NCBI GenBank assembly: GCA_019459285.1
Contig: JAIBEL010000054.1
Coordinates: forward strand, 62,001 to 126,000
Reading direction: 5' to 3'
DNA length: 64,000 nucleotides
From: Rhizobium sp.
Lineage (GTDB): Bacteria; Pseudomonadota; Gammaproteobacteria; Burkholderiales; Thiobacillaceae
Shown: positions 8,652 through 37,186 of the stretch, in pieces
Numbering within the stretch: position 1 is the stretch's first letter
How the letters are laid out: each line of letters starts with the position of its first letter
The notes under the pieces: model-generated
Told to the model about the DNA's origin: nothing
Database searches by the model: none
The model's input: only the letters and a program-made list of their open reading frames with translations
Translations under genes and position numbers: made by a program

Positions 8652-10106
8652 ATGCCGTTTTTCCGAATCGTGTCCTGTTTCCTGCCCGGTCTGCTGTTTG
8701 CAGGCCTGTCCGTCGCGGCGCATGCCGAACCGCTCCCACCCGCCTTCACGGCTGCACTGCAACAGGCCGGCATCCCGCTCGACCACGTGGCGGTGGTGGT
8801 GCAGCCGTTGGACACGGATAAACCGCTGATCAGCCACAATGCCGATGCGGCGCTGAACCCTGCATCCGTCATGAAACTGGTGACCAGTTTTGCGGCATTG
8901 AATCAGCTGGGTCCGGACTATGTGTGGAAGACGGATGTCTGGGCAGAGGGGCCGATCAGGGAGGGCGTGCTCGAAGGAGACCTGGTCATCAAGGGCTACG
9001 GCGATCCCACCTTGACGCTGGAGCGGATGTGGCTGCTGCAGCGCGAACTGCGTGCACGCGGGGTACGCCACATCCGCGGCAATCTGGTGCTCGACCTGAG
9101 CGACTTCGAGTTGCCGGCCAGCGATCCGGGGGCATTCGATGGCGAGCCGCTGGCCCTGTACAACGCCGCGCCGGGCGCACTGGTTGCCAATTTCAACGCA
9201 ACGACCTTGCGTCTCAAGCCCGATGGCAACGCCATCGGGATCGAACCGGATATTGCGCTGCCCGGCGTCACGATTCGTTCGGATATCGCGTTGACCGAGA
9301 GTGCCGCCTGCAATGGCTGGAGGGATGCGCTGACACCGAGTATTCCCGATCCCGAACGAAGAGAGCTGGTCGTTGGTGGGCACTACCCGCGCGGATGCGG
9401 TGAACAGGCCTTGTCGCTGAACCTGTTCGAGCCCGCGGTGACCTTCGATTTCCTGTTTCGCGGCCTGTGGGCGGAAACGGGCGGCACGCTTGGCGGGCAG
9501 ACCGTGCCCGGCATGTCGCCGGAAACGCCGCCTCTCTTGCGTTTCGAATCACTTCCGCTGACCGATTCGCTTATCCGTCTCAACAAGTATTCCAACAACC
9601 TGATGGCGCGCAACCTGTTCCTGACGCTGGGTGCGGAAGCCTATGGCCCGCCGGCGACGCCGGACAAGGGGGCTCGCGCGGTACGCGAAGACTTGGTGCA
9701 GCGCGGGATTTCAACGCGGAAGCTGGTGCTGGAAAACGGCGCCGGCCTGTCGCGCATCGAGCGCATCAGTGCGGGCGCATTGAACCAGCTGTTGCGCGCG
9801 GCCTATCGGAGCCCGCTGTTCGCCGAATTCGAATCGGCCCTGCCCATTGCCGCGACCGATGGCACCCTGAAGCGCCGCTTCAAGGGCAGCACCCTGGCCG
9901 GCAGCGCACATCTCAAGACCGGTACCCTGCGCGACGTCAGCGCACTGGCGGGCTACGTGGACACGGCGAGCGGACGGCGGGTGAGTTTCGTCATGCTGGT
10001 GAACCACGCCAACGCCAGCCGCAGCGAGGCGGCGCAGCGTGCGTTGCTGGAATGGGTGCAGTCGGAGATGTCTCTGGATAGCGGGGCGCGGGATGACGTT
10101 CGATAA
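8652..10106 (+). CDS. dacB: D-alanyl-D-alanine carboxypeptidase/endopeptidase (PBP4 family)
   Basis: A 484-residue class C low-molecular-weight penicillin-binding protein. ATG 8652 begins a clear signal peptide (FFRIVSCFLPGLLFAGLSV, then AHAEP). The three active-site motifs are present: SVMK (SxxK, about residue 74), YSNNLMARN (SxN) and HLKTGTL (KTG). The insert between SxxK and SxN is long, as in DacB/PBP4. It trims peptide stems and cross-links of periplasmic peptidoglycan. The reading frame continues upstream through the preceding gene, but without a signal peptide, so the ATG is firm. A broken small gene overlaps its 3' end. Confidence 0.94.
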   Translation: MPFFRIVSCFLPGLLFAGLSVAAHAEPLPPAFTAALQQAGIPLDHVAVVVQPLDTDKPLISHNADAALNPASVMKLVTSFAALNQLGPDYVWKTDVWAEGPIREGVLEGDLVIKGYGDPTLTLERMWLLQRELRARGVRHIRGNLVLDLSDFELPASDPGAFDGEPLALYNAAPGALVANFNATTLRLKPDGNAIGIEPDIALPGVTIRSDIALTESAACNGWRDALTPSIPDPERRELVVGGHYPRGCGEQALSLNLFEPAVTFDFLFRGLWAETGGTLGGQTVPGMSPETPPLLRFESLPLTDSLIRLNKYSNNLMARNLFLTLGAEAYGPPATPDKGARAVREDLVQRGISTRKLVLENGAGLSRIERISAGALNQLLRAAYRSPLFAEFESALPIAATDGTLKRRFKGSTLAGSAHLKTGTLRDVSALAGYVDTASGRRVSFVMLVNHANASRSEAAQRALLEWVQSEMSLDSGARDDVR

Positions 10107-10350
10107 GGTGCCCGCATGGGCGGCGTGGCTGGCACAGGATGCGGGCGGCACCTGGTACCCGCAAGGGGCAGGCCGCGGCTGTAAAGCCGCTTAAGCGGCA
10201 ACAGCCGCGCTCTGGGCTTACGAAGCCGAGCCCAATCAGCAGGATAAGGGTTGGTACGAAAACGAGGTCGGGCGCATCCTGCGGCTGGGCCAGGCCGCGC
10301 CGCCTGCGGATTGGGAGGCGACACTGACCGCTTGGCCATCCAAGGCCTGA
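10093..10350 (+). pseudogene. Small conserved protein interrupted by a 57-bp palindromic element
   Basis: ATG 10093 (overlapping the dacB end by 14 bases) opens MTFDKVPAWAAWLAQDAGGTW, and the same frame resumes at 10213 with WAYEAEPNQQDKGWYENEVG and runs to TGA 10348-10350. Joined directly at the tryptophan codon the halves give a plausible protein of about 66 residues. From memory, small betaproteobacterial proteins with WLAQD and YEAEPN motifs are common. Between the halves lie exactly 57 bases (10156-10212, a multiple of three). They are repeated near ftsZ and carry an in-frame TAA from the palindrome centre. So the frame is kept but a stop is introduced. The function of the intact family is unknown. 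Confidence 0.72.
10156..10212 (-). repeat. 57-bp palindromic element, copy A (REP/RPE-like)
   Basis: Aligned without gaps to the reverse-complement copy at 37104-37160, 50 of 57 bases match. The element folds into a stem (outer CGCGGCTGT/ACAGCCGCG, inner GCCGC/GCGGC, TTAA loop) followed by an unpaired tail containing GGCCTGCCCC and GCGGGTA. It sits inside a small gene. Confidence 0.8.
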
Positions 10351-10362
10351 GACTGGTTTGAC

Positions 10363-10905
10363 TCAGGGTGCGGCGGACGCGTCCAGCTGCAATTGGCCGT
10401 CCTTGACCGGAATGCGCGAACCGGGCTGATGGTCCATCCGCACGTGGCCTTCTTCCTTGCCCAGGCGGTAGCGCACGTCATAACCGATCGTTTTGGTATG
10501 CGATTCGTAGACGGTCTTGCAGCGCGTCTCGGTCCGGCCGACGGTGTCCTTTTCCTGCAGGTTTTTCTGTATCTGGTTGCCCGCGTAGCCCCCCGCTGCT
10601 GCACCCCCGACGGTGGCCAGGGTGCGCCCGGTGCCGCCGCCGATCTGGTGGCCGAGCAGGCCGCCAGCCACCGCGCCGATCGCCGTGCCGGCGATGCGGT
10701 TGCTGTCCTTGACAGGCGCCTGCTCGTTGACGACCACGTCATGGCATTCCTGCCGAGGCGTTTTGACGGTTTCGGTCACCGGCTTGGCGGCCAGGACCTC
10801 GGCAAATTCCGGCTTCGGATTCAGGGCCTTGTAGCCTGCTACGCCACCAATCGCCGTCACGGCGATTGCACCCAGTACGACGCCCGTCAGCATGGATTTA
10901 TTCAT
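10363..10905 (-). CDS. Glycine-zipper 2TM-domain outer-membrane/periplasmic protein
   Basis: A 180-residue protein starting with a hydrophobic membrane or signal segment (MLTGVVLGAIAVTAIGGVAG) without a lipobox cysteine. Residues ~70-110 form a glycine zipper (AGTAIGAVAGGLLGHQIGGG, then GGAAAGGYAGNQIQ), the pattern of the Rickettsia 17-kDa/SlyB-like 2TM family. The C-terminus (TRCKTVYESHTKTIGYDVRY, then GHVRMDHQPGSRIPV) is the conserved tail seen in the longer proteobacterial members. Likely an envelope-stability protein; the exact role is unknown. It lies downstream of the pyrR-like gene on the same strand, with an 83-base gap. Confidence 0.85.
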   Translation of the reverse strand: MNKSMLTGVVLGAIAVTAIGGVAGYKALNPKPEFAEVLAAKPVTETVKTPRQECHDVVVNEQAPVKDSNRIAGTAIGAVAGGLLGHQIGGGTGRTLATVGGAAAGGYAGNQIQKNLQEKDTVGRTETRCKTVYESHTKTIGYDVRYRLGKEEGHVRMDHQPGSRIPVKDGQLQLDASAAP

Positions 10906-35956: not shown

Positions 35957-37105
35957 ATGTTTGAACTGATGGATGTAGACACCCAGGACGCAGTGATCAA
36001 GGTCATCGGCGTGGGCGGTTGTGGCGGTAATGCGGTCGATCACATGATCAGCTCCGGGCTGAATGGCGTGGAGTTCATCGCCATCAACACCGACGCACAG
36101 GCACTGAAGCGCAACCAGGCCAAGCTGCAGCTGCAACTGGGCAATGGCGTGACCAAGGGCCTGGGCGCCGGCGCCAATCCGGATGTCGGCCGCGAAGCCG
36201 CGCTGGAAGACCGCGAGCGCATCGCGGAACTGATCGACGGCGCCGACATGCTGTTCATCACCGCCGGCATGGGCGGCGGCACCGGTACCGGCGCCGCCCC
36301 GGTGGTGGCCGAAGTGGCCAAGGAGCTCGGCATCCTTACGGTGGCGGTCGTCACCAAGCCCTTCATGTTCGAAGGCAAGCGCGTGCGCGCCGCCAATGCC
36401 GGCATCGAGGCACTGTCCCGTCATGTCGATTCGCTGATCATCATCCCCAACGAAAAACTGATGCAGGTGCTGGGTGACGACGTCTCCATGCTCGACGCCT
36501 TCAAGGCCGCCAACAACGTGCTGCACGGCGCCGTCGGCGGTATCGCCGAAGTCATCAACTGCCCGGGTCTGGTCAACGTCGACTTTGCCGACGTGCGCAC
36601 CGTGATGAGCGAGATGGGTATGGCGATGATGGGTTCGGCCCAGGCCAGCGGCGAAAACCGTGCGCGCATCGCTGCCGAGCAGGCCGTCGCCAGCCCGCTG
36701 CTGGAAGACGTCAACCTCGCCGGCGCGCGTGGCGTTCTGGTCAACATCACCGCTTCGTCGACCGTCAAGATGAAGGAAATCCACGAAGTGATGAACACCA
36801 TCAAGGGTTTCACCGCGGAAGAAGCCACCGTCATCGTCGGCCAGGTGCTGGACGACACCATGGAAGACGCCCTGCGCGTCACCATGGTCGCCACCGGCCT
36901 GGGCAACCCGGTTGCCCGGCAGAGCCAGAAGCCGATGCAGATCATCCGCACCGGCACCGACGATGCGCCGATGATGGTGAACGGCAACAGCGAGGAACTG
37001 CCCAGCGTGATGACCAGCCGTCGCAGCCGCACCATCCAGGCGATGACCGATTCCGGCATCGACACCCTGGACATTCCGGCTTTCCTGCGTCGCCAGGCGG
37101 ACTGA
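35957..37105 (+). CDS. ftsZ: Cell division protein FtsZ
   Basis: A 382-residue tubulin-like GTPase. KVIGVGGCGGNAVDHMI, NTDAQAL, the G-box FITAGMGGGTGTGAAPVVAE and the T7 loop NVDFADVRTVM are intact. The C-terminal peptide LDIPAFLRRQAD binds FtsA and other partners. ATG 35957 has a consensus AGGAGG eight bases upstream, suggesting independent strong translation. The gap to ftsA (35834-35956) may hold a separate promoter, but no clear hexamers were found. Confidence 0.98.
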   Translation: MFELMDVDTQDAVIKVIGVGGCGGNAVDHMISSGLNGVEFIAINTDAQALKRNQAKLQLQLGNGVTKGLGAGANPDVGREAALEDRERIAELIDGADMLFITAGMGGGTGTGAAPVVAEVAKELGILTVAVVTKPFMFEGKRVRAANAGIEALSRHVDSLIIIPNEKLMQVLGDDVSMLDAFKAANNVLHGAVGGIAEVINCPGLVNVDFADVRTVMSEMGMAMMGSAQASGENRARIAAEQAVASPLLEDVNLAGARGVLVNITASSTVKMKEIHEVMNTIKGFTAEEATVIVGQVLDDTMEDALRVTMVATGLGNPVARQSQKPMQIIRTGTDDAPMMVNGNSEELPSVMTSRRSRTIQAMTDSGIDTLDIPAFLRRQAD

Positions 37106-37160
37106 GCGTGGTTGTAGCCGCTTTAGCGGCTTTACAACCACGGCCTGCCCCCTGCGGGTA
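37104..37160 (+). repeat. 57-bp palindromic element, copy B (REP/RPE-like)
   Basis: Gapless 50/57 match to the reverse complement of 10156-10212. The stem is CGTGGTTGTA...TACAACCACG with inner GCCGC/GCGGC and a TTTA loop. It begins at the last bases of the ftsZ stop codon, so it is intergenic except for two bases. Confidence 0.8.
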
Positions 37161-37186
37161 GAGCGGGGTTGTTGCCGCGTACGATT

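Follow-up and report, generated by a model that had tools for sequence, protein, structure and literature searches.

Rickettsia palindromic elements (RPEs) are mobile palindromic repeats that lie in frame within unrelated enzymes, where they leave a recurring peptide, as set out in the accessible part of one article (PMC10969869). The accessible part of a second article (PMC3733652) describes GTAG and CGTC REPs, RAYTs, and REPs located in the open reading frames of several species, including Thauera, as well as in-frame RPEs of R. conorii. Palindromic inserts of this in-frame kind are known above all from the obligate intracellular Rickettsia, for which weak selection offers an easy explanation. 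In the present study, we describe the same insert behavior in free-living bacteria with many sequenced relatives, beginning with a 57-nucleotide unit that splits a small gene in a 64,000-nucleotide stretch of DNA (the window). Our main reading, to which we assign a probability of roughly 0.85, is that the unit is a mobile palindromic repeat of the REP class, 57 bp long, which duplicates no target sequence on insertion, lies mostly outside genes, and is also tolerated within proteins as a 19-residue insert. Among the matches listed in a search of the open-licence literature (titles and the beginnings of abstracts), there was no description of this repeat or of such inserts in Thiobacillus.

The small gene has 66 codons and starts at position 10093, where it overlaps the 3' end of an upstream frame that ends at 10106 and that we take to be dacB/PBP4-like. 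Its parts are as follows:

10093..10155, + strand: first half of the small gene, 21 codons, MTFDKVPAWAAWLAQDAGGTW
10156..10212, + strand: 57-nt palindromic unit, consisting of the hairpin CCC-GCAA-GGG, then GCAG, then an imperfect palindrome ending in CGCTC
10192..10194, + strand: in-frame TAA from the loop TTAA of the unit, which cuts the product to 33 residues
10213..10350, + strand: second half of the small gene, 45 codons (10213-10347) plus TGA (10348-10350), WAYEAEPNQQDKGWYENEVGR...

The initial annotation had proposed that the insert keeps the frame, that the two halves join at a Trp codon, and that the stop arises from the central TTAA of the palindrome. All of this holds: both halves are in one frame, the second half is intact, the insert is exact at 10156-10212 with the TAA inside it, and the 13 relatives aligned base by base (L011-L023) all read TGG|TGG at the junction. 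The gene is uninterrupted in each of these 13, none of which naturally contains the 57 bases (at the site in G025, L041, there are Ns and the locus is uninformative). Intact homologues of the joined halves exist as well; the joined protein has matches in 43 of 100 genomes of the same taxonomic family, counting the genome that contains the window (hereafter, the home genome), which together with five others has a partial match only. The small protein belongs to no family in Pfam or NCBIfam and has no match in the plasmid collection, and an Rfam search over positions 9900-10500 yielded a single hit that scored well under its gathering score. On both strands, the unit in the window folds better than shuffled sequences (z of -3.4 and -4.0). 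A CTGG repeat beside it was considered as a target duplication and ruled out, because the homologues carry both Trp codons.

The TTAA loop makes an in-frame TAA, so that the small gene is truncated and probably decaying. Between the window gene and its three closest relatives there are 7-8 nonsynonymous and 8-10 synonymous codon differences, versus 0-3 and 6-11 among those three relatives themselves; these small numbers fit relaxed constraint, and the gene may have been inactivated by truncation and have drifted since. A different possibility is that the gene is not disrupted, either because the TAA is read through or because the second half is re-initiated, with the element acting as a regulatory stop. 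We consider this very unlikely: the intact second half would agree with it, but the stop is no trait of the repeat family, nearly all other copies having this frame open; the window gene carries a raised number of nonsynonymous differences; and the gene of another genome (G088) is a frame-shifted remnant with CTC before TGGGC (three bases only). That CTC sits where the end of a unit would be, and the remnant looks as if an older unit had been partially deleted, going by those three bases. With truncation as the preferred reading, the window copy would be the failing outcome of the same event that leaves intact enzymes elsewhere.

The home genome belongs to a genus of sulfur-oxidizing bacteria that we infer to be Thiobacillus and comprises 3.38 Mb in 74 contigs. 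The genome-wide search that the initial annotation had called for, carried out with a covariance model, returned 26 matches with E no higher than 0.05, of which 20 fall below 1e-6; a few weak rows among the 26 represent the opposite strand of a copy already counted. One unit of this genome lies in frame in a full-length selO. Two further features of this kind lie in the window:

37104..37160, - strand: second unit, 88% alike to the unit at 10156-10212, directly after a gene
37161..37179, - strand: shortened neighboring unit, in tandem with the unit at 37104-37160, read from the sequence

The gene ending at 37103-37105, presumably ftsZ, takes its stop TGA from the terminal GA of the unit at 37104-37160. 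Across 158 distinct copies, a unit edge supplies the stop of a coding-like frame as TGA in 28 instances, TAG in 5, and TAA in 1, counts that include orthologous sites. The second unit had been read initially as carrying a TTTA loop that translation could pass. That loop was read from the other strand, and in gene orientation it is TAAA. The family consensus also has TAAA, which makes the TTAA of the window copy the odd one.

To characterize the unit, we used a copy sample of 164 matches in 146 loci, which combines the home-genome copies with the best locus from each of 30 genomes and with another 100 stretches; as these 100 were picked from the listed best matches, the sample is biased to intact copies. 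The consensus is about YACCCGCAAGGGGYAGGCCGTGGTTGTAAAGCCGCTAAAGCGGCAACAACCACGCTC, in which a small hairpin with a GCAA loop is followed by GCAG or GTAG and then by the long imperfect palindrome, and paired changes keep the stem at 6 of 19 pairs (8 copies). Unit length is 57 nt in 134 of the 164 copies and 56 nt in 21. The tetranucleotide directly before the palindrome is GCAG in 77 copies (the window copy included), GTAG in 57, GGAG in 11, and another in 19 (n = 164). At the unit start (n = 159), the first base is C in 105 copies and T in 53, followed by an ACCCGC-type sequence; the last four bases are GCTC in 104 and GCAC in 44 (n = 159). A T at position -2, present in 69% of 89 distinct left flanks, is missing from the window copy, a point against our main reading. 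Four loci (L056, L058, L059, L062) carry extra palindromes within the hairpins (e.g., CACCCTAAAGGGCAT in the first loop), giving composites of 65 to 108 nt.

The family is widespread among relatives of the home genome. At E up to 0.001, the covariance model detects the repeat in 64 of 100 genomes from the taxonomic family, with at least one unit in 39/39 genomes of the same genus (home genome included) and in 25/61 of the others. At E up to 1e-6, units occur in 27 of 300 genomes of the order, 21 of these 27 being outside the family. An exact pattern matched 62 stretches of named genomes, with titles giving Thiobacillus, Gallionella, Sulfuricellaceae, Sulfuriferula, Sterolibacterium, Nitrosomonadales, or higher ranks only, and had no match in viral contigs. 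A loose pattern was dropped as too unspecific (144 and 140 matches vs 94 and 89 in the control). When 163 copies were placed by a codon-usage scan (1 of the 164 was left out, its flanks being too short), 74 were intergenic, 72 had coding sequence on one side, 9 lay between opposite strands, and in 8 the coding sequence on either side belonged to one strand. In L083 and L061, the two coding flanks share a strand but not a frame.

That an element of this class could be translated as an internal insert had been proposed at the outset, and at the sequence level this is borne out by in-frame units in selO, srkA, prlC, coaE, and other genes. For selO, matched in 55 of 56 genus genomes, 30 loci were aligned. 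In the home genome, the unit is in frame and forms a 20-residue insert in a 525-residue frame with its C-terminus kept; 28 of the 30 loci are empty, the three nearest relatives among them, and the two filled ones (home genome, 60 nt; G115, 57 nt) have the insert at one same spot, where the SelO structure 6eac shows a gap. In srkA, there is one unit in G056 and there are two tandem units in G062, while 29 of 31 aligned loci are empty and E. coli YihE (1zyl) is without the insert. For prlC, matched in 54 of 56 genomes, 31 Thiobacillus loci were aligned: 24 are without a unit and 7 have one, the empty site reading GAG|CTC and the filled site being exactly 57 bases longer. Six of the filled loci are in frame, and the seventh (G006) is a remnant that has lost an internal part; in G083, the first unit harbors a second one, nested with the frame unbroken; and the prlC of one Sterolibacterium has a unit at the same site as that of Thiobacillus, with oligopeptidase A (4ka8) lacking the insert. 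This loop of prlC looks like an insertion hot spot. In several species, with or without the unit, a 9-residue insert of the PPATASGDK type stands just before the unit site (L373, L374, L387, L388, and L382 among the prlC loci L371-L400).

For the remaining genes, relatives provided no empty site. In coaE of G006, two units point in opposite directions and are accompanied by additional inserted residues; CoaE 4i1u, which has no insert, matches the product in three blocks. The pyruvate:ferredoxin oxidoreductase of the home genome has a C-terminal extension derived from the unit. Three cases are weaker, namely an L,D-transpeptidase-like gene (L276, 25 bits vs a cut-off of 365), an AddA-type helicase (L301, 371 vs 861), and an HsdR-type gene (L312, 160 vs 285); the profile matches of the latter two span the insert, and the alignment to a solved HsdR does not cross the insert of L312. 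Equivalog scores of SelO (610 vs 850) and PrlC (825 vs 927) are under the NCBIfam cut-offs, and the Pfam matches of both are well above theirs, as are SrkA and CoaE. These in-gene cases were drawn from two candidate lists. From the first, of 13 rows, 7 were kept (L087, L050, L057, L160, L174, L188, and L192 forward), and L072, L151, L192 reverse, L128, and two of L147 were dropped as antisense shadows, as too short, or for a weak model match (a Mur-ligase-like gene, 34.6 bits). From the second, of 8 rows, 4 new ones were kept (L276, L301, L312, L314), and those dropped were a repeat of L087 (L289), a repeat of L072 (L321), and two antisense frames. The reversed coaE unit was taken from the codon-usage scan instead. 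A different in-frame insert, about TPPDxxA..GGxGAA, occurs in srkA of L402 (G115), L403 (G053), and L406 (G081), between MGVED and VVVKFYRP, and residues like these flank the reversed coaE unit (L192, G006); this insert may represent another repeat family that is translated.

Many of the genomes are MAGs, and the in-gene copies could in principle be artefacts of assembling or binning metagenomes. We regard this as extremely improbable, since the same inserts recur in several assemblies and the nested prlC insert is found in G083, apparently T. denitrificans strain RG, whose title has no MAG label. Taking the inserts as real, species differ in the state of the prlC site (empty, filled, nested, or decayed) and of the srkA site (empty, filled, or in tandem); because these sites are seen in several states, the tolerance of proteins for selfish inserts becomes directly testable, including in a named strain if G083 is indeed T. 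denitrificans RG.

The reading frame of the unit bears on how such inserts persist. Frame +0, that of the window insert, is open in 156 of the 164 copies, and the other five frames in 3 to 107. This fits the proposal that the loop settles between read-through and stop, the frame being closed by TTAA in the window copy: among 110 distinct 57-nt units, frame +0 is closed in 6, the window copy included, and in 3 of these through a TTAA loop. The peptide of frame +0 has 19 residues, is hydrophilic, and reads about HPQGxGRGCKDAEASTTTL. Counted by site and with the weaker cases included, 9 of 11 in-gene units are in frame +0; the reversed coaE unit and the nested unit, which is in another forward frame, are the two outside it. 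With frames weighted by their openness, at least 9 of 11 has a probability of 6e-4, a figure that is only indicative because the candidate scan used score thresholds. The openness of frame +0 (0.95 observed, vs 0.86 in a random-substitution control) equals the value from resampled columns. Column make-up alone thus predicts it, so openness is no evidence of selection, and selection for an open frame was rejected as something these data show.

These numbers also bear on whether the in-gene copies have been domesticated, the 19-residue insert having been selected as a flexible linker or as an mRNA hairpin that paces translation, with the open frame as the consequence. The in-frame prlC inserts of six Thiobacillus genomes with a remnant in a seventh, the in-frame nesting of a second unit in one of them, the Sterolibacterium insert at the same site, and the frame shared by 9 of 11 in-gene units (p about 6e-4) are what such selection might leave. 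Against it, openness is no greater than the columns predict, most selO and srkA loci are without the insert, and the host enzymes are unrelated; we judge domestication unlikely. Our preferred reading is tolerance: since its length is divisible by three and one of its frames is nearly always open, the unit can persist inside genes, where it would do so as a hydrophilic insert of 19 residues by way of frame +0. The in-gene inserts are presumably translated, given their intact frames, and the sister copies in intact enzymes appear to add 19 amino acids each. A bolder extension, which we find doubtful, is that the repeat has evolved to be compatible with proteins, through its 3n length, open frame, soft linker, and taste for hairpin loops, and that it tiles, nests, and accumulates in housekeeping enzymes. 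If this were true, such a repeat would lengthen the enzymes of free-living bacteria module by module.

As to how the unit moves, there is no target duplication at the small gene or at prlC, both of which have clean 57-nt inserts, and matches between the left flank and the unit end are about as frequent as with shuffled partners. Transposition by HUH enzymes leaves no target duplication. In G083, a unit with GTAGGAG before it stands immediately next to a RAYT gene (NF047646, 146.9 bits, cut-off 80), and in G094 a RAYT gene (135.8 bits) lies ~140 bases from a unit preceded by GTGGGAG; a motif of this kind precedes the unit in 17 of 158 copies. Y1_Tnp matches occur in 40 of 56 genus genomes, with none in the home genome and the 15 others, and of 44 Y1_Tnp loci inspected, only 3 contain a unit, one of which (G083:C14) had been seen beforehand. 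The number of Y1_Tnp matches has no significant relation to unit copy number (rho 0.25, p 0.13, n 39). These Y1_Tnp results count against our main reading. Our best guess from these sequences is movement in trans by a RAYT: the element may be, or may have been, mobilized by a RAYT-type HUH transposase of the kind found in related strains and not in the home genome.

Another way for the unit to spread, with no transposase involved, would be through hairpins at which replication slips or switches template. The lack of a Y1_Tnp match in the home genome is in keeping with this, as are several arrangements of the units: tandem arrays run head to tail with a period of 57 (e.g., G025:C8, G099:C37); units sit inside another unit at TTG|TAA in 4 of 158 distinct copies (L086, L047, L173, L186; counted without a shuffled control), besides the nesting in prlC of G083; and 8 of 158 distinct copies (L073, L093, L103, L116, L141, L150, L153, L190), again without a shuffled control, are flanked by an inverted repeat of at least 7 nt. 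In six of these eight, the flanks have the form TGGATTCC...GGAATGAC, which resembles a CGTC-type REP. However, presence at many sites in 64 of 100 family genomes fits HUH transposition, as do the RAYT-adjacent units, and we see replication-borne spread as somewhat unlikely and movement by a RAYT as the better guess.

Set beside known systems, the unit resembles MITEs in being short, non-autonomous, and dispersed; unlike MITEs, it has ends that are not inverted repeats of each other and leaves no target duplication. The likeness to RPEs is one of behavior, the two having been compared by description and not by sequence: in both, a palindromic repeat sits in frame in otherwise intact genes, here selO, srkA, and prlC, with empty sites in relatives. 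The unit differs in its size, 57 nt and 19 residues vs about 150 bp in the accessible part of PMC10969869, in its free-living betaproteobacterial hosts, and in ends that lack CGTC, the tag that the accessible part of PMC3733652 reports for the R. conorii repeats. With GTAG REPs, as far as the same part of PMC3733652 describes them, it shares the absence of target duplication, unit ends that supply gene stops, and copies inside open reading frames. It may share two further traits with them, since a tetranucleotide immediately precedes its palindrome and, in two genomes, units lie next to a RAYT gene. It departs from them in that its tag is GCAG more often than GTAG (77 vs 57 of 164), the inserted unit includes the extra CCC-GCAA-GGG hairpin, the home genome is without a Y1_Tnp match, and units join head to tail with a period of 57. 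Taken as sequences, the members of this family behave like RPEs and intragenic REPs, and so like a known kind of element.
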